Source of the DNA: Anaerolineae bacterium
GTDB taxonomy: Bacteria; Chloroflexota; Anaerolineae; UBA1429
Direction: 5' to 3'
Assembly (NCBI GenBank): GCA_021162655.1
Contig: JAGGYI010000150.1
Coordinates: forward strand, 1 to 32,726
Length of the DNA stretch: 32,726 nt
Part shown: in pieces, positions 14,779-29,806 of the stretch
Numbering within the stretch: the stretch's first letter is position 1
Layout of the letters: the number at the start of each line of letters is the position of its first letter
Program-made: the position numbers and the translations under genes
The notes under the pieces: model-generated
What the model was told of the DNA's origin: nothing
Database searches by the model: none
What the model saw: the letters and a program-made list of their open reading frames with translations, nothing else

Positions 14779-14807
14779 AGTATAACCTGGGGTGGGGGGA
14801 CTGTCAA
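14779..14807 (-). promoter_or_regulatory. Consensus promoter of the exchanger gene
   Basis: Minus strand: perfect TTGACA, a 17-nt spacer, TATACT. Predicted start near 14772, leaving a leader of about 97 nt. It is back-to-back with the ilv promoter, with the two -35 boxes 19 bp apart. Confidence 0.75.
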
Positions 14808-14826
14808 AAAGGGATGGAATGATCCC

Positions 14827-14855
14827 TTGACAAAGGGGCCGAACTGTGATATGCT
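14827..14855 (+). promoter_or_regulatory. Promoter of the ilv-leu operon
   Basis: Perfect TTGACA, a 17-nt spacer, TATGCT. Predicted transcription start near 14862. Between this promoter and the exchanger promoter lies the inverted repeat GGGAT-N6-ATCCC (14811-14826), a possible operator. Confidence 0.75.
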
Positions 14856-14888
14856 AGGAGCAACTTTTTGGGAATGTGTGTGAGGCCT

Positions 14889-14996
14889 ATGTTTCTATCT
14901 TCCCTGACCGCTGGCGTTATTAGCATTATTATTCTCGTCCTAGTTGAGCTCCTCGTTATTGAGGAGCTATCGCCGGTTGGGAGGGGGTTGCAGTAG
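14889..14996 (+). CDS. Branched-chain amino acid leader peptide (attenuation peptide)
   Basis: A 35-codon reading frame from ATG 14889 to TAG 14994-14996, about 27 nt after the predicted transcription start. Residues 10-24 read VISIIILVLVELLVI: 13 of 15 are Ile (5), Val (4) or Leu (4), the three products of the operon. GAGG lies just upstream but close to the ATG; an in-frame ATG at 14874 would add five residues and is an alternative start. The position right before ilvD, the codon content and the overlapping RNA hairpins match the leader peptides of ilv operons controlled by ribosome stalling (as in enterobacterial ilvL). The gene symbol is not assigned because homology of such peptides cannot be shown by sequence. 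Confidence 0.85.
   Translation: MFLSSLTAGVISIIILVLVELLVIEELSPVGRGLQ
14947..14968 (+). promoter_or_regulatory. Pause hairpin (1:2) of the ilv attenuator
   Basis: A perfect 8-bp stem, AGCTCCTC (14947-14954) with GAGGAGCT (14961-14968), encloses the loop GTTATT. Strand 1 lies in leader-peptide codons 20-22, so a ribosome stalled on the Ile/Leu/Val codons would prevent it from forming. Confidence 0.7.
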
Positions 14997-15039
14997 GCCG
15001 AGCCAAAGCTGTTTGCTCAAAAGAGCCTCACCCAACCGG
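14973..15039 (+). promoter_or_regulatory. Antiterminator pairing (2:3) of the ilv attenuator
   Basis: CCGGTTGGG (14973-14981) is perfectly complementary over 9 bp to CCCAACCGG (15031-15039). The latter contains the top of the left terminator strand, the loop and one base of the right strand. The pairing is therefore mutually exclusive with the terminator. Strand 2 ends 13 nt before the leader stop codon, so a ribosome that finishes the peptide would cover part of it. A small bulged hairpin at 15000-15018 lies inside the enclosed region. Confidence 0.7.
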
Positions 15040-15058
15040 GGTGAGGCTCTTGTCATTA
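15021..15058 (+). terminator. Attenuator terminator of the ilv-leu operon
   Basis: A perfect 13-bp stem (15021-15033, AAGAGCCTCACCC, with 15039-15051) has loop AACCG and is followed by a moderately T-rich tract GTCATTAT. It lies 25 nt after the leader-peptide stop and 138 nt before the ilvD start. The weak T-run may mean incomplete termination. Confidence 0.75.
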
Positions 15059-15088
15059 TGAGGGCTCTTTGAGGAGCTCACTGGGAGC

Positions 15089-15147
15089 AAGGGCGCCATG
15101 GCTGGCAGAGGATCCCCTCTGCGGGTGGTGGCGCCTTTTCTCTATAT
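15089..15147 (+). terminator. Second terminator-like hairpin before ilvD
   Basis: A long two-tier hairpin. The outer stem pairs 15089-15098 (one bulged G) with 15129-15137 over 9 bp; the inner stem GCAGAGG/CCTCTGC (15105-15111 with 15116-15122) has loop ATCC; a 6x6 internal loop lies between. TTTTCTCTATATT covers the end of the outer stem and follows it. This T-tract is better than that of the first terminator. Confidence 0.6.
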
Positions 15148-15189
15148 TCGGGGATTGCCAAACGATCACAAATGAGAGGAGAAAGGGTC

Positions 15190-16872
15190 GTGAGAAGCGA
15201 TGTTGTCAAGAAGGGCATCGAGCGGGCACCACATCGTTCGCTCCTCCGGGCTCTGGGCCGCACGGATGAAGAGATCGAGCGTCCCTTTGTGGGGGTTATC
15301 AGCTCTTTTACCGAGATCGTTCCGGGGCACCTTCACCTTCGGCGCCTAGCCGAAGCGGTCAAGGCGGGCGTCTATATGGCTGGAGGTACTCCCTTTGAGG
15401 CGAATACCATTGCCGTCTGCGATGGAATCGCCATGGGGCATATGGGGATGAAGTTCTCTCTGCCTTCGCGGGAGCTCATAGCCGATTCGGTTGAGACGGT
15501 GGCACAGGCACATGCCTTTGATGCTTTGGTGCTTATTCCCGCCTGCGACAAAATCATTCCCGGCATGGTGATGGCGGCTGCTCGCTTGAATCTGCCTACG
15601 GTGGTTATCACTGGAGGGCCCATGCTGGCCGGTCAGCTTGGGGGGCAGGCGCTGGATCTAAACAGTGCCTTCTTGGCGGTGGGCGCGGCTGCCAAGGGAG
15701 AGATGGACGAGCGAGAGGTGGAGCGCATCGAGCGGGCCTGCTGCCCGGGCTGTGGTTCCTGTTCGGGCATGTTTACGGCTAATACCATGTCCTGCCTCTG
15801 TGAGGCTTTGGGCATTGCCCTTCCAGGGAATGGGGCCACTCCCGCGGTGCACGCCGAGCGCTATGCCTTGGGCAAGTTGGCCGGCATCCAGGTGATGGAG
15901 ATGTTCCGCCGGGGCATCACTGCTCGCGATATCCTCACCCCCGAGGCTTTTCACAACGCTTTTACCACTGATATGGCCATGGGAGGGTCGACGAACTCGG
16001 TGCTGCACCTTTTGGCCATCGCCCATGAGGCAGGTATCGAGTTTGATCTCCATCAATTGAATGTTTTTAGTGCCAATACCCCTCACATATGCAAGCTTTC
16101 CCCGGCAAGTGATCAGCACATTGAGGATCTTTATTACTCCGGAGGGATAGGGGCTATCCTGCATGAACTTGAGCGAGTGGGTTTGCTCAAAGGAGAGGCG
16201 CTCACGGTCACAGGGCAGACGGTTTCTGAGAATCTCAAGCCAGGCTCACGTTGGGCCCCAGATTACGCTATCGTCAATCGTCAGGTGGTGCGTACGCCTG
16301 AGGATCCTTATTCTCCTACAGGGGGGTTGACCATTCTCTTTGGCAATTTGGCTCCCGAGGGTGCGGTGGTCAAAAGCGCGGCCGTCTCCCCCAAGATGAT
16401 GCACCATTCGGGGCCGGCGCGAGTCTTTGATTCAGAGGAAGAGGCTACGGCGGCCATCCGCGCTCGCCAGTTCAAAGATGGTGATGTGATCGTCATCCGC
16501 TATGAGGGGCCCAAGGGAGGGCCGGGAATGCGCGAGATGCTCAGCCCCACTTCGTTGCTTTCAGGCATGGGGGTGGATGACCGTGTGGCGCTCATCACCG
16601 ATGGGCGCTTTTCCGGGGCCTCGCGTGGGGCGGCGATTGGGCATATCTCGCCTGAGGCGGCAGCCCGGGGCCCCATTGCGGCTGTTCAGGAGGGGGATAT
16701 CATCACGATCGATATCCCCAATCAGCGACTGGAGCTGAACGTGCCCGAGGAAGAGATTCAGCGACGCCTGGCTGCCCTTCCTCCCTTTGAGCCAAAGATC
16801 AAGGAGGGTTATCTGCGGCGTTATGCCCGTCTGGTGACCTCGGCCAGCACGGGTGCAGTGTTGGAAAGATAG
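15190..16872 (+). CDS. ilvD: Dihydroxy-acid dehydratase
   Basis: A 560-aa iron-sulfur enzyme that dehydrates 2,3-dihydroxy-3-methylbutanoate and its methylpentanoate homologue, the third common step of Val and Ile synthesis. The GTG at 15190 is chosen: GAGAGGAG lies 8-10 nt upstream and the protein then begins [19 protein letters not shown], aligning with the family N-terminus; an ATG at 15172 would lie upstream of this site. Cluster and active-site motifs are [30 protein letters not shown] and the C-terminal [17 protein letters not shown]. It is the first structural gene of the operon, after the attenuator. Expression should therefore respond to charged Ile, Val and Leu tRNA levels. Confidence 0.97.
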
Positions 16873-16935
16873 ATAAGAGCTATTTTGTGTAGTTGAGCTG
16901 AGATTTATTTGGCTTGCATCGAAGGAGAGCGAGAG

Positions 16936-18618
16936 ATGAAGATGAATGGAGCCCAGATTCTCTGGGAATGTCTGGTGCGCGAAGGGGTGGACGTTGTCTT
17001 TGGCATCACTGGCGGGGCGATCATGCCCGTCTACCACGAACTACCCAAGTTCCCCATTCGCCACGTGACGGTACGCCATGAGCAAGCTGCGGCGCATGCT
17101 GCCGATGGCTATGCCCGGGCTACGGGTAAGGTGGGTGTTTGTATGTCGACCTCGGGCCCGGGGGCTACCAACCTCGTCACGGGGATCGCCACCGCCCAGA
17201 TGGACTCCTCCCCTATCGTTGCCTTTACAGGTCAGGTTCCTTCTGCGGTGTTGGGCACTGATGCCTTTCAGGAGACGGACATTACCGGCATCACAATGCC
17301 CATTACTAAACATAATTATCTTATCACTGACGTGCGCGACCTAGCTCCGGCCATCCGCGAGGCTTTTCACATTGCCAGCACAGGCCGCCCAGGGCCAGTG
17401 TTGATCGATATCACCAAGGATGTACAGATGGCCGAGATCGAATTCGAGTATCCCAAGGAGATCAACCTACCGGGCTACAAGCCCCATACCAAAGGGAACA
17501 TTCGGCAAATCCGCCAAGCGGCGCAGATGATCAATGAAGCTCAGCGTCCGTTGTTCGTCGCAGGGCAGGGAGTGCTCATCTCGGGGGCAGAGAGGGAACT
17601 GCGGGCCTTGGCGGAAAAGGCTCAGATCCCTGTGGTCACTAGCCTTTTGGGCAAGAGTGCCATCCCCGAGTCTCACCCCCTTTGCCTAGGGATGGGTGGA
17701 ATGCACGGGGAGGCCTTTGTTAACCATGCTCTGCAAGAAGCCGATCTTCTCGTTGGTGTGGGAGCACGTTTTGATGACCGGCTGACTAGCACGGCTGAGA
17801 CCTTTGCTCCCAAGGCTAAAATCATCCACATCGACATCGACCCTGCCGAGATCGGCAAGCGCATCCCCGTAGATCTGCCTATTGTGGGGGATGCCGGCAA
17901 CGTGCTTCGAGCCCTCATCCCTTTAGTGAAAAGAGCTTCGCACAAAGAGTGGCTTGCCCAGATCGATGAATGGCGGCAAGACACCTACGCTCGCGATATT
18001 CTCCTCCGTGAGACGGATGAATTTATTCCCCAGTATGTCATCCGCAACATTTGGGAAGCCACCGAGGGTCAGGCGATTATGGTTACTGACGTTGGCCAGA
18101 ACCAGATGTGGGAGGCACAGTATTACCTCCATGAGCGTCCCCGCGGCTTGATTACCTCGGGAGGTCTGGGGACGATGGGCTTTGCACTGCCTGCCGCTGT
18201 GGGAGTGGCTGTTGGCCGTCCTGGAGAACCCGTCTGGGTTGTGGCGGGGGATGGAGGTTTTCAGATGACCCTCCAGGAGTTGGCTACCGTTGTGCAGGAG
18301 AGGCTTCCGCTCAAGATTGCCATCTTGAACAATGGCTACCTGGGTATGGTGCGCCAGTGGCAGGAGCTCTTTTTCGAAAAGAATTACTCTGGTACTCCTA
18401 TCTTGGGGCCAGATTTTGCCAAGCTGGCTGAGGCCTATGGGATTCCAGGGATCACTGTGGAGGAAAAGGCCCAGGTGCCTGAGGCAATCAAGCAAGCCCT
18501 CGAGACTGAGGGGCCAATTCTCCTCGATTTTCGTATCGAGCGGGAGCACAACGTCTTCCCCATCGTTCCTGTGGGGCAGCCCATCGATAAGATGATTCGC
18601 CGTCCCATTGATAGTTAG
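16936..18618 (+). CDS. ilvB: Acetolactate synthase, large (catalytic) subunit
   Basis: A 560-aa thiamine-diphosphate enzyme. It condenses two pyruvates to acetolactate, or pyruvate with 2-oxobutyrate to acetohydroxybutyrate, the first common step of Val/Leu and Ile synthesis. The ATG at 16936 has GGAGAGCG upstream; the frame is open to 16909, but that part lies before the ribosome-binding site. The catalytic glutamate is in RHEQAAAHAADGYARATG, and the diphosphate-binding motif runs from GDGGFQM to ILNN. All three TPP-enzyme domains are present. The regulatory subunit gene follows after 16 nt, as expected for a stoichiometric pair. Confidence 0.97.
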   Translation: MKMNGAQILWECLVREGVDVVFGITGGAIMPVYHELPKFPIRHVTVRHEQAAAHAADGYARATGKVGVCMSTSGPGATNLVTGIATAQMDSSPIVAFTGQVPSAVLGTDAFQETDITGITMPITKHNYLITDVRDLAPAIREAFHIASTGRPGPVLIDITKDVQMAEIEFEYPKEINLPGYKPHTKGNIRQIRQAAQMINEAQRPLFVAGQGVLISGAERELRALAEKAQIPVVTSLLGKSAIPESHPLCLGMGGMHGEAFVNHALQEADLLVGVGARFDDRLTSTAETFAPKAKIIHIDIDPAEIGKRIPVDLPIVGDAGNVLRALIPLVKRASHKEWLAQIDEWRQDTYARDILLRETDEFIPQYVIRNIWEATEGQAIMVTDVGQNQMWEAQYYLHERPRGLITSGGLGTMGFALPAAVGVAVGRPGEPVWVVAGDGGFQMTLQELATVVQERLPLKIAILNNGYLGMVRQWQELFFEKNYSGTPILGPDFAKLAEAYGIPGITVEEKAQVPEAIKQALETEGPILLDFRIEREHNVFPIVPVGQPIDKMIRRPIDS

Positions 18619-18634
18619 TGAGAAAGGGATTGAG

Positions 18635-19162
18635 ATGAGCGCAATACCAGCAAAAGAAGGGTTTTCTCGGCGCACTCTGGTTGCCTTGATGGAAGATAAG
18701 CCAGGTGTCCTCAGCCATGTGGTGAACCTTTTTCGTCGTCGAAACTATAACATCGAGAGCCTCACTGTGGGGCATAGCGAGACACCGGGCATCTCGCGGA
18801 TGACGGTGGTCGTCTATGCCAATGATGCTGTGGTAGAACAGGTAATGAAGCAGCTCTACAAGTTGATCAATGTTGTCAAGGTGAGTGACATCTCGGACGA
18901 TGCAGCCGTCATTCGAGAGCTGGCTCTCATCAAAGTGCATGCCCCCTCCTCTGTCCGCGCGGAGATCAAGCAACTTGCTGATATCTTTCGCGCCCAGATC
19001 GTTGACGTTTCCCGTGAGTCGATGACCATCGAGATCACGGGTACCGAGGACAAGGTCGATTCCCTTATCGAGATACTTCGGCCGTTTGGCATCAAAGAGT
19101 TGACGCGTACTGGTCGAGTGGCGATGGTGCGAGGGGCTCTGCACACCAATGGGAATACCTAA
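18635..19162 (+). CDS. ilvN: Acetolactate synthase, small (regulatory) subunit
   Basis: A 175-aa regulatory subunit. The N-terminal ACT domain reads TLVALMEDKPGVLSHVVNLF...NYNIESLTVG, the site where valine binds for feedback inhibition in this family. A C-terminal ALS_ss_C domain follows (EIKQLADIFRAQIVDVS). The ATG at 18635 is chosen; an in-frame GTG at 18608 would overlap ilvB. AAAGGG lies upstream. The length is normal for the longer type of small subunit, often called IlvH in other species; the symbol choice between ilvN and ilvH is conventional. Confidence 0.95.
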   Translation: MSAIPAKEGFSRRTLVALMEDKPGVLSHVVNLFRRRNYNIESLTVGHSETPGISRMTVVVYANDAVVEQVMKQLYKLINVVKVSDISDDAAVIRELALIKVHAPSSVRAEIKQLADIFRAQIVDVSRESMTIEITGTEDKVDSLIEILRPFGIKELTRTGRVAMVRGALHTNGNT

Positions 19163-19227
19163 GAGGAGGGCAGGAAGGGTTAGAACTGGTGCCTTGGCGC
19201 CAGCGAGTTTCATACATCCATCTATAA

Positions 19228-20251
<1,024 letters not shown>

Positions 20252-20292
20252 CCCTTTTTAGTGATAGTTCTCTTGAACATGTTGATGAGCGA

Positions 20293-20314
20293 GGGCTGGC
20301 TCTGGAGTCAGCCC
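20293..20314 (+). other. Hairpin upstream of cimA
   Basis: A 9-bp stem with one G-U pair, GGGCTGGCT (20293-20301) with AGTCAGCCC (20306-20314), has loop CTGG. It ends about 6 nt before the GGGAG ribosome-binding site of cimA and lacks a T-run, so it is not a terminator. It could affect ribosome access or mRNA processing. Confidence 0.45.
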
Positions 20315-20336
20315 CCGCAGGGAGTGGGCTTTGGCT

Positions 20337-21911
20337 ATGGTGAAAAAGATCGCAGTACTCGATACGACACTACGTGACGGCTCTCAGATGGAGGGTATTT
20401 CCTTCTCTGTAAAGGACAAGTTGCGCATTGCGCAAAAGCTCGATGAGTTGGGTGTTGCCTATATCGAGGGAGGATGGCCAGGCTCGAATCCCAAAGATGC
20501 CGAGTTCTTTGCGCGGGCCAAGCATCTTGCCTGGCGGCAAGCTCGACTGACGGCTTTTGGCAGTACACGTCATGCGCAAAAGAGCGTGACAGAGGATGCC
20601 AACGTCCGGGCGTTGTTAGAGGCCGAAACTCCCGCTGTGGTGATCGTAGGCAAGTCTTCCCCCATGCAGGTTACCGAGGTTCTCCAGACTACTCTGGAGG
20701 AGAACCTGGCGATGATTCGCGAGACGGTGGCCTATGTCAAGGCTCAGGGTCGGGAGGTACTTTTTGACGCGGAACACTTTTTCGATGGCTACAAGTTGGA
20801 TGCAGCCTATGCTATCGAGACGGCTCGGGTAGCAGCAGAAGCGGGGGCCGATTGTGTCGTTCTCTGTGACACGAATGGGGGCTCCCTTCCTTCAGAAGTA
20901 GCGCGCATCGTTGCTGCTGTGCGCAAGGCTTTGCCTGGGGTAGAACTGGGCATGCATGCTCATAACGATACCGGGGTTGCTGTGGCCAATACTCTCATGG
21001 CGGTGGAGGCCGGGGCTACCCACGTGCAGGGAACAATCAATGGTTATGGTGAGCGCTGTGGGAATGCTGATCTCTGTACGGTGATTCCCAACTTGCAACT
21101 CAAGATGGGCTACCAGGCCCTGGCTAATGGTGATCTCACCCGGCTGACAGAAGTAGCCCGTTTTGTCAGCGAGATCGCCAATCTGCGACCTAACGAACAC
21201 GCTCCTTATGTAGGGCGCAGTGCTTTTGCCCATAAAGCAGGCTTGCATGTGAGCGCTCTGTTGCGGAACGTGAATAGCTATCAGCACATTGATCCGGCCT
21301 TGGTGGGCAACAAGATGCGGGTGCTTGTCTCCGAGCTCTCTGGGCGGGGGAACATTGCCCACAAGCTGGCCGAGCTGGCCTTAGAGGTGGAGCTGGACGC
21401 CGAGGAGATTCGTCGGCTGGCCCAACGAGTGAAGGAACTGGAGAGCAAGGGGTTCCAGTTCGAGGGGGCCGATGGTTCCTTTGAGCTTTTGGTGAGGCGT
21501 TCTCAGCCTGATTACAAGCCACCTTTTGTTGTTTCGGATTTCACGGTGTTGGTGGAAAAGCGCACTGATAAGGAGATCATCGCCGAGGCTACCGTCAAGG
21601 CAGAGGTAGAAGGTGCTGTGATGCATACTGCTGCCGAGGGAGATGGGCCCGTGAACGCACTGGATAGGGCGATGCGCAAGGCGCTGTTGCCTTTTTATCC
21701 CGAGTTGGACAAAGTGCAACTGACGGATTATAAAGTGCGCATCCTCGATCCGCAGTCGGCTACGGCGGCCCTCACCCGGGTGCTCATTGATGCCAGCGAT
21801 GGTCAGAGCTCCTGGACGACGGTAGGCTGCTCGGTGAATATCATCGAGGCTAGCTTCCAGGCGCTCATCGATAGTTTGGAGCTGCCGCTACTCCGGCGGG
21901 CCTCCCCTTAA
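20337..21911 (+). CDS. cimA: (R)-citramalate synthase
   Basis: A 524-aa DRE-TIM metallolyase family enzyme. It begins with VKKIAVLDTTLRDGSQMEG and continues YIEGGWPGSNPKDAEFF, segments characteristic of the citramalate synthase branch rather than isopropylmalate synthase; the metal-binding HxH is in GMHAHNDTGVA. The C-terminal LeuA-type allosteric domain (about residues 390-520) is present. It condenses acetyl-CoA with pyruvate to citramalate, the first step of threonine-independent isoleucine synthesis. ATG 20337 is listed; TTG 20331 sits closer to GGGAG and is possible. Its product would be processed by the same LeuCD and LeuB used for leucine. Homocitrate synthase-like activity is less likely given the operon. 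Confidence 0.9.
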   Translation: MVKKIAVLDTTLRDGSQMEGISFSVKDKLRIAQKLDELGVAYIEGGWPGSNPKDAEFFARAKHLAWRQARLTAFGSTRHAQKSVTEDANVRALLEAETPAVVIVGKSSPMQVTEVLQTTLEENLAMIRETVAYVKAQGREVLFDAEHFFDGYKLDAAYAIETARVAAEAGADCVVLCDTNGGSLPSEVARIVAAVRKALPGVELGMHAHNDTGVAVANTLMAVEAGATHVQGTINGYGERCGNADLCTVIPNLQLKMGYQALANGDLTRLTEVARFVSEIANLRPNEHAPYVGRSAFAHKAGLHVSALLRNVNSYQHIDPALVGNKMRVLVSELSGRGNIAHKLAELALEVELDAEEIRRLAQRVKELESKGFQFEGADGSFELLVRRSQPDYKPPFVVSDFTVLVEKRTDKEIIAEATVKAEVEGAVMHTAAEGDGPVNALDRAMRKALLPFYPELDKVQLTDYKVRILDPQSATAALTRVLIDASDGQSSWTTVGCSVNIIEASFQALIDSLELPLLRRASP

Positions 21912-22016
21912 GGGTAGGTCCCGGCCCCCTGGGCAGAGGGGTCAGAGGATTGGGAGGCCCGCCTGGAGAGGTATTGGCCTGCCCGAGAGATGGCAAAACC
22001 AGGAGGTTTTTGAGCA

Positions 22017-23606
22017 ATGGATATCGCCAAAGTTCTCATCTTTGATACAACCCTTCGTGATGGTGAGCAATCTCCCGGGGCAACTTTGCACACCGATGAA
22101 AAGGTCGAGATTGCCAAGCAGCTAGCTCGGCTAGGAGTGGACATTATCGAGGCAGGGTTCCCGGCTTCTTCACCTGGGGATCTGGAGGCTGTGAGGCGCA
22201 TTGCGCGCGAGGTCGAGGGTCCGACGATCTGTGGCCTGGCGCGTTGTGTAAAGAGCGATATTGACGCGGCATGGGAGGCCATCAAGGATGCGCCCAAGGG
22301 ACGCATTCACGTCTTTATAGCTACTTCGGACATCCACATGAAGCATAAATTGCGCATGACCCGTGAGCAGGTGATTGAGCGGACGCGAGAGATGGTCTCC
22401 TATGCGCGCTCTCTCTGTGAAGATATCGAGTTCTCGCCCGAGGATGCGGGGCGTTCAGATCCCGAGTTCCTCTATCAGGTGTTGGCTGTGGCCATCGAAG
22501 CAGGGGCGACTACGCTGAACATCCCCGATACGGTGGGCTATACCATGCCTGATGAGTTCGCCGCTCTCATTCGAGGGATTCGTGAAAATGTTCCCGGCAT
22601 CGAGAAGGCTATCATCTCTGTACATTGCCATAATGACCTGGGCTTGGCCACTGCCAACAGCTTAGCCGGGGTGCTCGCGGGAGCACGCCAGGTAGAGTGC
22701 ACTATCAATGGCTTGGGTGAGCGGGCTGGCAATGCTGCCTTGGAAGAAGTGGTTATGGCCCTCTATGTGCGGCGGCAATACTTTAACTTGACGACAAACA
22801 TCGATACCACACAGATCTATCCCACCAGCCGAATGGTGGCTAACTACACCGGCATGGCCGTACAGGCGAACAAAGCTATCGTCGGGGCCAATGCCTTTGC
22901 TCATGAGGCGGGCATCCATCAGGATGGCATCCTCAAGAATCGCCTCACTTATGAGATCATGGATGCGCAGACAGTGGGCCGTGGCGAGAGCACCTTGGTT
23001 CTGGGCAAGCATTCAGGCCGCCATGCTTTTGCTGACAAATTGGCTCAGATGGGGTATCATCTGGACGAAGAGCAGCTCAACCGTGCTTTTGCGCGTTTCA
23101 AGGAGCTGGCCGATAAAAAGAAGATCATTTCAGAGCGCGATATCGAAGCGATCGTCTCCGATGAAGTGTTCCAGCCCGAAGAGGTCTATAGCCTGGAGCA
23201 TCTGCAGGTTTCCTGTGGCGATCATGCCATCCCCACGGCTACAGTGGCGCTCAAGGGTCCTGATGGCCAGGTGATCATCGATGCGGCTCATGGCACTGGG
23301 CCGGTGGATGCTGTCTACAAGGCCATCAACCGTATTATTGGGGTGCCCAACCGGTTGACGGAATTTTCTGTCAAAGCGGTTACTGAGGGGATTGATGCTG
23401 TTGGTGAAGTGACTATCCGCATCGAGGCTGAAGCGGATGATGTGGCCAATCTTCCCGTCAACCCTCAGACGGGGAAGAAGGTCTATGTTTTCAGTGGGCA
23501 TGGGGCTAGCACCGATATTGTTGTTGCTAGTGGTCGTGCCTATATGAGCGCTTTGAACAAGCTTCTTGCCGTCAAACGGGGCAAGAATGTCCAAGCCGAT
23601 CGCTAA
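22017..23606 (+). CDS. leuA: 2-Isopropylmalate synthase
   Basis: A 529-aa enzyme that condenses acetyl-CoA with 2-oxoisovalerate, the committed step of leucine synthesis. The ATG at 22017 follows AGGAGG. Motifs are [17 protein letters not shown] (catalytic Arg and metal Asp), [11 protein letters not shown], the metal-binding HCHNDLG, and [12 protein letters not shown]. The C-terminal third (about residues 390-510) matches the LeuA dimer/regulatory domain that binds leucine. It clearly differs from the preceding cimA at the substrate-specifying segments, so the pair are paralogues with distinct roles. The 105-nt gap before it has small GC-rich hairpins but no clear regulatory element. Confidence 0.96.
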
Positions 23607-23669
23607 GAGCGCTTTTCTCTTCACTTTGTAGAGGCAAAGATACATCATAGCACAAGGAGAAAGGGAACG

Positions 23670-24941
23670 TTGAGCGAATCTCTACCTATGACGATGGCTC
23701 AGAAGATTCTAGCGGCTCACGCTGGGCGCGAGAGCGTCCAAGTAGGTGAGCTCATCGACGTCAGAGTGGATTTTGTTCTAGCCAATGATATTACCGCCCC
23801 CATCGCCATTCGCGAGTTCGCCAAACTTGGTGTGGACCATGTCTTTGATCGGGAACGGATCGCCCTCGTTCCCGATCATTTTACTCCTAATAAAGACATC
23901 AAATCGGCAGAGCAGGTCAAGCTCATGCGGGAGTTTGCCCATCAACAAGGAATTGTCCACTATTGGGAGATAGGCCGAGTGGGCATCGAGCATGCGCTTC
24001 TCCCTGAGCAGGGGCTTGTTTTGCCTGGGGACGTGGTGGTTGGGGCGGATTCGCATACCTGCACTTATGGAGCAGTGGGGGCCTTTGCCACTGGCATGGG
24101 TTCCACCGATATCGCCGTGGCCATGGCTATGGGGCGCATTTGGATGCGCGTCCCCGAGACGATCAAGTTCATCTATCGAGGCAAATTGCGGCCTTGGGTG
24201 GGGGGCAAGGACCTCATCCTTTACACCATTGGCCTCATAGGAGTGGATGGAGCGCTCTATAAGGCAATGGAGTTCACTGGGCCGACGATTGAGGAGCTCT
24301 CTATGGATGGCCGCTTTACCATGGCGAACATGGCCATCGAAGCGGGGGCCAAGGCGGGGCTCTTTGCTGTCGATGCCAAGACAGAGGCCTATGTGGCTGA
24401 GAGAGCCCAGCGGCCCTATACTAGTTATTTTTCAGATCCCGAGGCAGAGTATGGGCAGGTTATCGAGATCGATGCTAGCACCATCGAACTACAGGTGGCT
24501 TTCCCTCATTTGCCCAGCAATACTCGTCCGTTGAGTCAGGTGGATCACATCGAGATTGATCAGGTGGTTATCGGCTCTTGTACAAATGGCCGTTGGTCGG
24601 ATCTCCTGCAAGCTGCCAAGATCCTTCGTGGGCGCAAAGTGCATCCCAACGTGCGCTGCATCGTTATCCCAGGTACGCAGCAGATCTATCTGCGTGCCGT
24701 TCGTGAGGGTCTGGCGGAGATTTTCATCGAGGCTGGGGCCGTGTTGAGCACGCCCACTTGTGGACCTTGCCTTGGAGGACATATGGGCGTTTTGGCAGCG
24801 GGGGAGCGTTGTGTTTCGACGACGAACCGCAATTTTGTGGGGCGGATGGGCCATGTGGAGAGTGAGGTCTACCTGGCGGGGCCGGCTGTGGCTGCTGCCA
24901 GTGCGGTGTTGGGTTACATTGGTGGGCCTGATCAGTTGTAA
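23670..24941 (+). CDS. leuC: 3-Isopropylmalate/citramalate dehydratase, large subunit
   Basis: A 423-aa aconitase-family large subunit of the shorter LeuC type seen in archaea and many non-proteobacteria. It isomerises 2- to 3-isopropylmalate and, in this operon, probably also citramalate. The [4Fe-4S] ligands are visible as [11 protein letters not shown] and [30 protein letters not shown] is the family signature. The start is taken as TTG 23670 because AAGGAG lies 10 nt upstream; the ATG at 23688 would lie too far from it. The small subunit gene leuD is separated from it by thrC. Confidence 0.95.
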
Positions 24942-24950
24942 GGAAAGAAT

Positions 24951-26321
24951 TTGTCGGGGGCGAGAAAAGCAGTGGATGCGGGCGAGCTAAAATGCTGGTT
25001 CCAATGTGTGCGTGGCTGTGAAGAGCGCTACTCTGTCTTTGAGGTGATTTATCACTGTCCCAAGTGTGGGGGACTGTTGGAGGTGCGCCACGATCTAGAT
25101 GCCCTAAGGGCATTGCATACGGCTGAGGAGTGGAAGCAGCTCTTTGACGCCCGCACGCGCACAAACGAGTGGCCCTATGGCAGTGGCGTTTGGGGCAAGA
25201 AGGAATGGGTCTGCCCAGAGGTACGTAACGAGAACGTCGTCTCGATGTATGAAGGGCATACAAACCTCTTTTGGGCTCAGCGCTTGGGGCAACAGATCGG
25301 TGTTGAGGATCTTTGGGTGAAGCTTTGTGGGAACAGCCATACCGGCTCTTTCAAAGATCTAGGGATGACCGTCCTGGTGAGTGTGGTCAAGCAGATGATT
25401 GCCGATGGGGCCCCTATCCGCGCCGTGGCCTGTGCTTCAACAGGGGATACTTCGGCAGCTTTGGCAGCCTATTGTGCGGCTGCGGGCATTCAGTCCATTG
25501 TCTTTTTGCCCAAGGATAAGGTTTCAGCAGCTCAGTTGATTCAACCCATCGCCAATGGAGCGATGGTGCTCGCCCTCGATACAGATTTTGATGGATGTAT
25601 GTCTATCGTCAAAGAGGTGACCAAGGATAATACCATCTATCTGGCAAACTCGATGAATTCGCTGCGCATCGAGGGGCAGAAGACGGTGGGCATCGAAATC
25701 GTTCAGCAATTCGATTGGGAGGTGCCCGATTGGATCATTATCCCCGTGGGGAACTTGGGGAATATCAGTGCTTTGGGCAAGGGGCTCCTCCTGATGAAGG
25801 AATTGGGATTGATTGACAAGCTCCCTCGTCTGGTGGCGGCGCAGTCGGCTCAAGCCAATCCTTTCTATCTTAGTTATCTGACGGGTTTCAAGAGCTTTGT
25901 TCCCATCAAGGCACAAAAGACCCTCGCCAGCGCTATCCAGATTGGTAATCCTGTAAGCTATGAAAAGGCTGTCAAGGTGATGCAGGCCTTTGACGGTATC
26001 GTTGAACAGGCCACCGAGGATGAGCTGGCCGATGCTGCCGCTCGAGCAGACCTCACAGGGATGTACGCTTGCCCTCACACGGGGGTGGCCCTGGCGGTGC
26101 TCTTTAAGTTGGTGGAGCGGGGTATCATCAGGAGCCATGACCGAGTGGTGGTCATCTCGACAGCTCACGGACTCAAGTTCACCAACTTTAAGATCGGTTA
26201 TCATGAAGGCACCTTGCCAGGCGTCAATGCTTTACGGCGCAACCCGCCTATCGAGCTCCCCCCGGATGTGGATGCCGTCAAAGAGACCATCGCTCGCGAG
26301 CTGGAAAGGCGGGGGATGTAA
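24951..26321 (+). CDS. thrC: Threonine synthase
   Basis: A 456-aa PLP enzyme that converts O-phosphohomoserine to threonine. The N-terminus has a zinc-ribbon-like [14 protein letters not shown]...YHCPKCGG segment, common in this threonine synthase group. The PLP lysine is in [12 protein letters not shown], the phosphate cup near [17 protein letters not shown], and the glycine-rich region in [16 protein letters not shown]. The TTG at 24951, only 9 nt after leuC, follows AAGGAAAG and is the likely start; a GTG at 24972 is possible. Its place between leuC and leuD is unusual. Threonine is not needed as an isoleucine precursor if CimA is active, so co-expression may balance aspartate-family and branched-chain pools. 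Confidence 0.93.
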
Positions 26322-26348
26322 GAGATACGACAAAGAGGAGGATCGTCT

Positions 26349-26852
26349 GTGAGCATTCGAGGCCGTGTGTGGAAGTATGGGGATAATGTGGATACCGATG
26401 CTATCATCCCGGCGCGTTACCTGAATACCTCTTCGGAGAAGGAGCTGGCTGCTCATTGTATGGAGGATATCGACCCCTCCTTTGCCCGAGAGGTCAAAGC
26501 GGGGGATATTATCGTGGCAGGCAGGAACTTTGGCTGTGGTTCTTCTCGGGAACATGCCCCGGTGGCCATCAAAGCTAGTGGGGTAGCTTGTGTCATTGCG
26601 GAGACCTTTGCACGCATCTTTTTCCGCAATGCTATTAACATCGGTTTGCCCATCCTTGAATGCCCTGAAGCGGTGCAAGCTACAGAGGCTGGACAGACTC
26701 TAGAGGTGGATCTGGCCAAAGGGATCATTCGCAATTTGGATACGGGCCAAGAATTCCGAGCTGTCCCTTATCCGGACTTTATGCTTGCCATCATTGACGC
26801 AGGTGGGCTCATCGAGTACACTCGGCGGAAATTACAGCAGGCAAGGAGCTAG
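26349..26852 (+). CDS. leuD: 3-Isopropylmalate/citramalate dehydratase, small subunit
   Basis: A 167-aa swivel-domain subunit that completes the LeuCD dehydratase. Motifs are [17 protein letters not shown] near the N-terminus and [17 protein letters not shown], followed by [15 protein letters not shown]. The start is GTG 26349, with GAGGAGGAT just upstream. The length matches the short LeuD paired with the short LeuC type. It is only three bases ahead of pheA. Confidence 0.96.
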
Positions 26853-26855
26853 ACG

Positions 26856-27707
26856 ATGGCCAAGGGCCTACGCATCGCCTTCCAGGGGGAGAGGGGAGCT
26901 TACAGTGAGGAAGCCGCTTTGGCCCTCTTTGGAGAAGAGATCGAACTCGTTCCACAGCGCACCTTCGATGCCGTTTTTGCTGCCGTGCAGGAGGGCCACT
27001 GCGATCATGGAGTAGTGCCTATCGAGAATTCGCTTGCGGGGAGCATTCACCGTAACTACGACCTGCTTTTACAATACGATCTCTATATTGTTGGGGAACA
27101 TAATTTGCGTATTTCCCATTGTCTCATTGCACATCCGGGTGTCGGGCTGGGTGAGATCCGGCGGGTCTATTCTCATCCTCAGGCATTGGCCCAATGTGAG
27201 CATTCATTGCGCGAACTCGAGGGTGTGCAGGTAGTGGCGACCATTGACACGGCTGGTAGCGTCAAGATGATTAAGGAACAGGGGTTGCGCGATGCGGCGG
27301 CCATTGCCAGTGAGCGAGCCGCGCGGCTCTATGGAATGGAAATCCTCCGTAGAGATTTTGAGGACGAGCGGACGAATTACACTCGCTTCATTGCCCTGGG
27401 ACGCAAGCCTGTTACCCCCGAAGGAGAAGCCAAAACATCTTTGGCCTTTGCGGGGCGGAACGAGCCTGGCCTGCTTTTCCGTTGCTTGAGCGCTTTTGCT
27501 TTGCGCAACATCGACCTGACCAAGATTGAATCCCGGCCTCTTAAGGGGGTGCCCTGGGAGTATATCTTTTATCTCGACTTTGCTGGTAGCCTCTCAGAGG
27601 AGCGCTGCCGTCGAGCTGTGGAGCAGCTTAAGGAGATGGCCAATTTTGTGCGTGTCTTTGGTTCTTATCCTCGGGCACCTGCAGCCTGGGTGGAAGCAGA
27701 GAGCTGA
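26856..27707 (+). CDS. pheA: Prephenate dehydratase
   Basis: A 283-aa monofunctional prephenate dehydratase, the step from prephenate to phenylpyruvate in phenylalanine synthesis; there is no chorismate mutase domain. Catalytic-domain motifs are IAFQGERGAYSEEAA, VPIENSLAGSIHRNYDLL and the conserved TRF in DERTNYTRFIALG. The C-terminal ACT domain has NEPGLLF and the phenylalanine-binding IESRPLKG segment, so feedback inhibition by phenylalanine is expected. It is tightly coupled to leuD (3-nt gap), placing an aromatic gene inside the branched-chain operon. Confidence 0.95.
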   Translation: MAKGLRIAFQGERGAYSEEAALALFGEEIELVPQRTFDAVFAAVQEGHCDHGVVPIENSLAGSIHRNYDLLLQYDLYIVGEHNLRISHCLIAHPGVGLGEIRRVYSHPQALAQCEHSLRELEGVQVVATIDTAGSVKMIKEQGLRDAAAIASERAARLYGMEILRRDFEDERTNYTRFIALGRKPVTPEGEAKTSLAFAGRNEPGLLFRCLSAFALRNIDLTKIESRPLKGVPWEYIFYLDFAGSLSEERCRRAVEQLKEMANFVRVFGSYPRAPAAWVEAES

Positions 27708-27763
27708 TGGGCTAGGCAACGGCCCCCAAGGGGGAGATTCTGATAAAAGGGAGTGAGGGCATC

Positions 27764-28834
27764 ATGCAAGCCAAGATTGCGCTATTACCGGGGGACGGCA
27801 TCGGCCCAGAGGTCATTGCGGAGGCCCGCAAGGTTTTAGAGGCGGTTGCTTCGGTCAAAGGGCATACCTTTACTTTTATCGAAGGGCTCGTTGGGGGTAT
27901 TGCCATCGACAAAGTTGGCACCGCTCTGCCCGAAGATACCCTAGCCCTTTGCCGAGCCGCTGACGCAGTGCTCTTTGGGGCGATAGGCGGTCCCAAATGG
28001 GATGACCCTACGGCCAAGGTGCGTCCTGAACAAGGACTTTTGGGGTTACGGAAAGGGCTGGGCCTTTTTGCAAATTTGCGTCCAGTGCGGCCTAGCCCTG
28101 CGTTGAAGGGAGCATCGCCGATCAGGCCCGAAGTGCTCGCTGGCACGGATTTGCTTGTCGTTCGGGAGCTCACAGGGGGTATTTACTTTGGTGAGCGAGG
28201 TCGTCTCAATGGGGGTAGTGTGGCCTTTGATACGATGACCTACTCTGTGGTTGAAGTGGAGCGTATCCTGAGGGTGGCCTTCGAGTTGGCGCGCAAGCGG
28301 CGCAAGAAGGTTACCTCAGTGGATAAGGCCAATGTTCTCGAGTGTTCGCGCCTTTGGCGGGAGACGGCCAATCGAGTTGCTCAGGAATACCCGGATGTAG
28401 ATTTTGAGAATTTGCTCGTCGATGCCTGTGCTATGCATCTCATCCGTCGCCCGGCGAGCTTTGATGTTATCGTTACCGGCAACATGTTTGGCGATATCCT
28501 CACCGATGAGGCTTCGATGCTTACAGGCTCTTTGGGGATGCTTCCTTCGGCTTCTTTGGCTGAGGGAACTTTTGGCCTCTATGAGCCCATTCATGGTTCG
28601 GCCCCAGATATTGCTGGCAAAGGCATTGCCAATCCCATCGGAGCTGTCCTCAGTGGCGCGATGCTCTTGCGCTACTCCCTGGGGTTGGAAGAGGAGGCCC
28701 AGGCAATCGAAGCAGCGGTGGATCAGGTATTAGAGGAGGGTTATCGTACCCAGGATATCGCTCAAGAAGGTACCCAGGTGGTGGGGACAGCTGAGATGGG
28801 GGATCTGATTGCTGAACGGTTAACCCAGGGATGA
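27764..28834 (+). CDS. leuB: 3-Isopropylmalate dehydrogenase
   Basis: A 356-aa beta-decarboxylating dehydrogenase that oxidises 3-isopropylmalate to 2-oxoisocaproate and, for the citramalate route, 3-methylmalate to 2-oxobutyrate. It starts [20 protein letters not shown]. The substrate loop [19 protein letters not shown], the catalytic Lys in [15 protein letters not shown], the metal-binding Asp in [15 protein letters not shown], and the NAD-type [17 protein letters not shown] are all present. The ATG at 27764 follows GGGAGTGAGGG. It lies 56 nt after pheA. Confidence 0.97.
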
Positions 28835-28876
28835 AAAGTTGGCTTGCTCAATGTCTAGGAAAAAGGAGTCAAGACC

Positions 28877-29806
28877 ATGCCGATGAATAAATCTGATTAT
28901 ATCTGGTTCGATGGGGAGTTTGTCCCCTGGGATGAGGCCAAAGTGCACGTCCTCTCTCACGCATTACACTATGGGTCCAGCATCTTTGAGGGGATTCGTT
29001 GCTACGACACAGCCAACGGCCCAGCGGTTTTTTGTCTTTCCCAGCACGTCAAACGGCTGTTCAATTCGGCCAAGATCTATCGGATGGAGCTGCCCTATTT
29101 GCCCGATCAGGTTTCACAAGCGATCTTGCAAACGATCGCCAAGAACAAATTGCGTTCCTGCTATATCCGTCCGCTAGCTTTCCGTGGTTATAGCGAGCTG
29201 GGGGTAGAACCCCGCAATTGCCCTGTGCATCTTGTGATTGCCGTTTGGGAATGGGGAGCTTATTTAGGGAAAGAAGCCCTTGAACAAGGGGTGGATGTGG
29301 GCGTCTCTTCCTGGCGGAGGATGGCGCCGGATACCTTCCCCGCTGCCGCCAAGGCTGGTGGGCACTATACCAACTCACAGCTCATCCGTATGGAAGCTGC
29401 TGAGCTCGGATATGCAGAAGGGATTGCTTTGGATGTCTATGGCTATGTGAGTGAGGGTAGTGGGGAGAACATCTTTGTTGTGCATGATGGAGTGATCTAT
29501 ACTCCACCTCTTTCGGCCTCCATTTTGGGGGGCATCACGCGCAGTTGTGTAATCACTCTGGCTCGCGATCTGGGTTATGAAGTGCGCGAAGCGCTTATTT
29601 CACGGGAGCAGCTTTATGTGGCTGATGAGATCTTTTTCACTGGTACGGCTGCCGAGATCACACCTATTCGTTCGGTGGACCACATTGTCATAGGGCCGGG
29701 CCGCCGGGGGCCCATCACTACCAAGCTGCAGAGCGAGTTCTTTAAGATCGTCTCGGGGCAGGTGCCTGATCGGCACCATTGGTTGACGCCCGTCCCCGTG
29801 GAATAG
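28877..29806 (+). CDS. ilvE: Branched-chain amino acid aminotransferase
   Basis: A 309-aa fold-type IV PLP aminotransferase that makes the final transamination to Val, Ile and Leu. The N-terminus [20 protein letters not shown], then [17 protein letters not shown], then the PLP lysine in [14 protein letters not shown] and the C-terminal [14 protein letters not shown] are typical IlvE motifs. The ATG at 28877 has AAAGGAG upstream. It is the last gene of the operon; a strong hairpin terminator follows 19 nt after the stop. Confidence 0.97.

Follow-up and report, generated by a model that had tools for sequence, protein, structure and literature searches.

A predicted ribosome-mediated attenuator with an Ile/Val/Leu leader peptide before the branched-chain operon of an Anaerolineae bacterium

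The ilvDBNC-cimA-leu-ilvE operon in the window (the whole 32,726-nt stretch of DNA analysed here) is very probably controlled in cis by ribosome-mediated transcription attenuation, through an element that jointly senses charged tRNAs for Ile, Val and Leu. The element lies, like all features of the window described below, on the forward strand, and precedes ilvD (15190–16872), which encodes dihydroxy-acid dehydratase (TIGR00110 and NF002068 above cut-off). The longest ilvD ORF starts at 15172, and alignment with relatives favours the GTG at 15190 as the start. The rest of the probable operon (16909–29806) carries ilvB, ilvN, ilvC, cimA, leuA, leuC, a thrC-like gene, leuD, a pheA-like gene, leuB and ilvE, so that one Ile/Val/Leu leader fronts the whole branched-chain pathway. 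The threonine synthase-like gene (24951–26321) and the prephenate dehydratase gene (26856–27707) thus lie inside a branched-chain operon. The nearest named relatives of this ilvD are from Anaerolineae MAGs, which place the host in that class and bear out the guess of the initial annotation, made from the sequence alone, that it belongs to Chloroflexota.

Leader peptide, RNA pairings and proposed mechanism

The promoter claimed by the initial annotation was found at 14827–14855. It is of the sigma-70 type (TTGACA, 17 nt, TATGCT, with a TG-extended −10 element; 10/12 match), and a TTGACA/TATAAT pair matching at least 10/12 positions is present in 31 of 36 homologous leaders, compared with 0.9% of shuffles. 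The transcription start is predicted at about 14862. The leader peptide ORF of 35 codons, MFLSSLTAGVISIIILVLVELLVIEELSPVGRGLQ, runs from the ATG at 14889 to the TAG at 14996 and contains the regulatory codon run VISIIILVLVELLVI (14916–14960), in which 13 of the 15 translated residues are Ile, Val or Leu; both the frame and this count had been reported initially. Among all stop-to-stop segments of the window in six frames, VISIIILVLVELLVI is the only one to reach at least 13/15 I/L/V, and none of 60 order-1 simulated windows contained such a segment (best simulated value, 11). Every Ile codon in the run is ATT, whereas the operon prefers ATC, and the CTA codon at 14940–14942, which makes up 6% of operon Leu codons, recurs at the corresponding position in 11 of the 13 members of the family. 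Within group A, variation in the run is greatest at codon position 3, then 1, then 2 (0.49, 0.35 and 0.20). This is a coding-type manner of variation, translation itself being predicted. No clear Shine-Dalgarno site was seen before the leader ATG. I/L/V leaders homologous to that of the window lie upstream of class ilvD genes, and their N-termini are without conservation among relatives. In two of these loci (L011 and L012) the ORF stops earlier in frame, and the inner hairpin and the GTTGGG segment 2 are retained; the conserved C-terminus of the peptide therefore reflects a constraint on the RNA.

Folding of the leader beats 199 of 200 shuffles (z −4.1). The leader comprises four pairing segments and an inner hairpin. 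Segment 1, the protector (14901–14916), would partner segment 2 where no ribosome covers it, and the 1:2 duplex of 14901–14916 with 14971–14986 has an energy of −24.0 kcal/mol. Segment 2, the 5′ strand of the antiterminator (14973–14987), consists of CCGGTTGGG followed, after a mismatch, by GGGG. Segment 3 (15021–15038) forms the left arm and loop of the terminator and is the partner of segment 2 in the antiterminated state, and segment 4 (15039–15059) holds the right arm, which ends at 15051, and then a weak U-rich tail. The 9-bp antiterminator match noted initially is exact (CCGGTTGGG at 14973–14981 with CCCAACCGG at 15031–15039) and stronger than had been described, since the 2:3 duplex continues beyond the internal mismatch to −23.3 kcal/mol, a value equalled by none of 200 shuffles. 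The 13-bp terminator stem is likewise present (15021–15033 with 15039–15051). The U-tract that follows the stem is poor in the window (TTGTCATTAT from 15050), which is why a simple terminator scan did not list this terminator, and better in most relatives.

The inner hairpin (14946–14968), located where the codon run ends, contains the 8 bp that the initial annotation had called a pause hairpin (14947–14954 with 14961–14968). The stem itself holds up, but it neither overlaps the antiterminator strand nor competes for segment 2, and its probable role is that of a pause hairpin that would synchronise polymerase and ribosome. A 9-bp complement of its left arm near 15072 was set aside as chance, as it was not seen in the relatives inspected. 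Similarly, the attenuator had at first been called complete although the 1:2 pairing had been missed; with 14901–14916/14971–14986 added, the term is justified.

On this basis, we propose the following scheme, in which both termination and ribosome stalling are inferred. When Ile, Val and Leu are all sufficient, the ribosome would reach the stop codon (14994) and cover segment 2, upon which the terminator at 15021–15051 would form and transcription would end. Scarcity of any one of the three would stall the ribosome at 14916–14960 and break the 1:2 pairing; segment 2 would then pair with segment 3, and RNA polymerase would enter ilvD. Without translation, 1:2 would form and the terminator would again be favoured. 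In folding of the RNA as far as the terminator loop, with a simulated ribosome as a mask, the antiterminator probability in the window was 0.06 with no ribosome (1:2 at 0.71), 0.81 with a stalled ribosome and 0.00 with the ribosome at the stop codon. The family means were 0.14 (free), 0.62 (stalled) and 0.19 (at stop), and the group means followed the same order. Exceptions included three loci that stayed closed when stalled (L015, L016 and L019) and one that was open in every state (L009). Taken together, the 1:2/2:3/3:4 set and the simulated-ribosome folding support the mutually exclusive pairing logic, as in enterobacterial ilv operons, that had been suggested initially.

Conservation among ilvD loci and a second hairpin

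Conservation was assessed in 36 ilvD loci of the class, divergent to about 55% IlvD identity. All 36 carry the I/L/V leader, the inner hairpin, the antiterminator strand and the terminator, so that neither the codon run nor the exclusive pairings, whose absence from relatives had been named as grounds for doubt, is missing from any of them. The antiterminator strand is of the GGTTGGG or GGTTAGG type, its complement is carried in the terminator loop, and the strongest 2:3 duplex falls at the homologous site in 36/36 loci. The inner hairpin covaries (0.349, compared with 0.155 after shuffling and no more than 0.157 after sliding). Column-wise counting of 2:3 pairs on alignment A1 gave 81.3% against 80.0% when shuffled, with the Anaerolineales type one column out of register, and it was replaced by energy swap tests. 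In permutations that do not correct for kinship among the loci, 2:3 duplexes of own partners averaged −19.8 kcal/mol and those of swapped partners −15.8 kcal/mol (0/2000). By group, the corresponding counts were 40/5000 in A2, 8/5000 in B and 495/5000 in f1, the last not significant because the f1 sequences are too alike. For 1:2, the equally kinship-blind counts were 0/5000 overall, 1/5000 in A2 and 31/5000 in f1.

All 23 group A loci, the window among them, have the 1:2 pairing, at −11 to −28 kcal/mol and mostly near −20 kcal/mol, whereas the Anaerolineales group B loci lack it. There are therefore two subtypes, A with a protector and B without. Most group A loci place the stop codon exactly 19 nt beyond the first nucleotide of segment 2, a spacing at which a terminating ribosome would sit on segment 2.

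Between the attenuator and ilvD lies a second conserved element (15062–15148), which consists of a small hairpin (15062–15079), a GCAAGGGCGCC motif and a long hairpin whose last letters are TTTT. This long hairpin (15079–15143) begins with a conserved GCRA-N-G motif and carries a U-run. The stem of the element covaries across 20 loci (0.473 against 0.188 when shuffled), and the element also occurs in L003, L005, L007, L017–L020, L161, L275 and L282. A model of it re-finds the hairpin just after the attenuators of loci outside the training set (ilvB in G123 and G098, ilvD in G072, and also cimA and serA in genome G016). A hairpin resembling the second element stands alone at 1500–1563 of L272 (G200:C21), about 30 nt before a gene that by eye resembles glutamine synthetase. 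In the proposed attenuation scheme, polymerase must also read through this second terminator-like hairpin, which could either add a further step of attenuation or stabilise the transcript.

Copies before other genes and alternative explanations

We searched more widely with a covariance model of the attenuator (R1), which is mostly sequence and includes 6 base pairs. At E ≤ 0.001, it matched in 145 of 298 genomes of the class and 62 of 400 of the phylum, counts obtained with stricter filters, so that some weak matches were lost and a few distant ones are spurious. The matches in L172, L186, L187 and L189 look spurious, and most of the distant R2 matches outside attenuator loci resemble ordinary terminators or coding sequence. 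A scan of ilvD loci from Clostridia and other non-Chloroflexota gave no match at E ≤ 0.1.

Copies of the attenuator were found elsewhere before ilvB, ilvE, cimA, leuS and serA. Leu and Ile plus Val codons number 35 and 4 in the leuS leaders (n = 7), compared with 60 and 73 in the ilvB leaders (Fisher P = 3e-7). The leader of cimA is rich in Ile (IIIIAIPLII), and that of serA in Thr and Ser (GTTTTSSTTC). The composition of the leuS, cimA, serA and ilvB leaders thus indicates that codon identity follows the downstream gene. As the training set of R1 consisted of Ile/Val/Leu leaders, finding Leu-only and Thr/Ser cases goes against the bias of the model. The serA leader occurs as one copy (L161, about 2520–2660; G016:C72:4054–4158); serA of other relatives has none, and the serA case therefore rests on one genome. 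The window genome's own leuS (C240) also has no such leader.

Several further arrangements were observed. The Leu-only leader attenuators before leuS in L145, L146, L147, L170, L171, L173 and L174 are built on the same scaffold as the ilvD attenuators. In L083, L151 and L181, two attenuator-like leaders follow one another upstream of ilvD, ilvB or related genes. A full copy precedes a rubrerythrin-like gene in L141 (313–432), where a link to branched-chain amino acids is not obvious, and copies in L142 and L143 precede a small conserved ORF (about 137 aa, no Pfam match).

The gene-matched leaders bear on a different account of stalling, in which the peptide sequence itself rather than tRNA charging would arrest the ribosome, as in leaders of the TnaC or SecM type. 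Family f1 does have a conserved peptide motif, LVLVELLVIEE..VGRG, as such an arrest peptide might. However, the motif varies by family and downstream gene, tracking the cognate amino acids, and C-terminal conservation coincides with the RNA pairing regions, which makes nascent-peptide arrest very unlikely. Even less probable is that the product of the ORF functions as a small membrane protein with a hydrophobic helix and that the hairpins are an ordinary terminator. VISIIILVLVELLVI resembles a transmembrane segment and similarity of the peptide extends across the class, but the Leu-only leuS leaders (YLTLTGLLGCEER) are far less hydrophobic, the serA copy places TTTTSSTTC on the same RNA scaffold, N-termini are unconserved, L011 and L012 drop the C-terminus with the RNA retained, and the ORF is in every case followed by a terminator that has a complementary strand upstream.

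Control by an RNA that binds a metabolite or a protein (a riboswitch, T-box or repressor site), the ORF being incidental, is just as hard to credit: T-boxes occur in Chloroflexota (PMC3766115), a T-box-like GGGTGGTACCGCGG precedes leuS in L198 and L219, and the second conserved hairpin is present, but no Rfam family matched at gathering score, a T-box, which would have a stem I specifier and the sequence AGGGUGGNACCGCG, gave no match in 14800–15200 at E up to 10, and the codon run shows coding-type variation and gene-matched composition. The cyanobacterial sRNA NsiR9 gave a weak Rfam match of 19.3 bits, below its cut-off of 90, which was taken as chance.

Relation to known attenuators and implications

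Classical ribosome-mediated attenuation is known mainly from Proteobacteria and Actinobacteria, and the enterobacterial ilvGMEDA and ilvBN leaders are classical cases. The attenuator described here has in common with these an Ile/Val/Leu leader peptide, exclusive 1:2, 2:3 and 3:4 pairings and a branched-chain operon. In contrast, its sequence is unrelated, a separate covarying hairpin lies in the codon run, ilvD comes first in an operon that covers the entire pathway to Ile, Val and Leu, and one scaffold also serves leuS, cimA, ilvE and, once, serA. With the Rfam families Leu_leader (RF00512), Thr_leader and His_leader it shares the mechanism class; the window and ten relatives gave no match to Rfam leader families at gathering score.

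For Actinobacteria, predictions exist of candidate leader peptides upstream of ilvB and of classical attenuators upstream of leuS, and altering the ilvB codons in Streptomyces was reported to be without effect (PMC1262725). Corynebacterium has an ilvBNC attenuator and an ilvB-II motif (PMC11857589, PMC10272879). A short Ile/Val/Leu ORF with a terminator before ilvB and a Leu leader before leuS are common to these systems and the present one, whereas here the phylum and the sequence are different and one conserved scaffold serves several genes with swapped codons.

The initial annotation had expected the element to be unannotated, and as far as the libraries go this is supported, since Rfam, Pfam and NCBIfam hold no entry matching the attenuator or the leader peptide. 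In the literature searched, with one relevant subscription paper outside its coverage, we found no earlier report of such an attenuator for Chloroflexota. The attenuator is thus a new instance of a long-known mechanism class, apparently undescribed, and it can credibly be argued that these attenuators form a distinct and modular family. More tentatively, one ancestral Chloroflexota scaffold may have given rise to copies in several operons, each adjusted through its codons (Ile/Val/Leu for ilv, Leu for leuS, Ile for cimA, Thr/Ser for serA), often coupled to a second hairpin that reads another signal. We regard this as possible but doubtful; if true, the coupling in many lineages would amount to two-step control.

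The finding points to a widespread family of homologous attenuators, absent from Rfam, in a large and mostly uncultured phylum. Its gene-matched codon runs amount to a natural codon-swap experiment. The family predicts amino acid responses for many genomes available only as MAGs, and it points to many missed leader genes.
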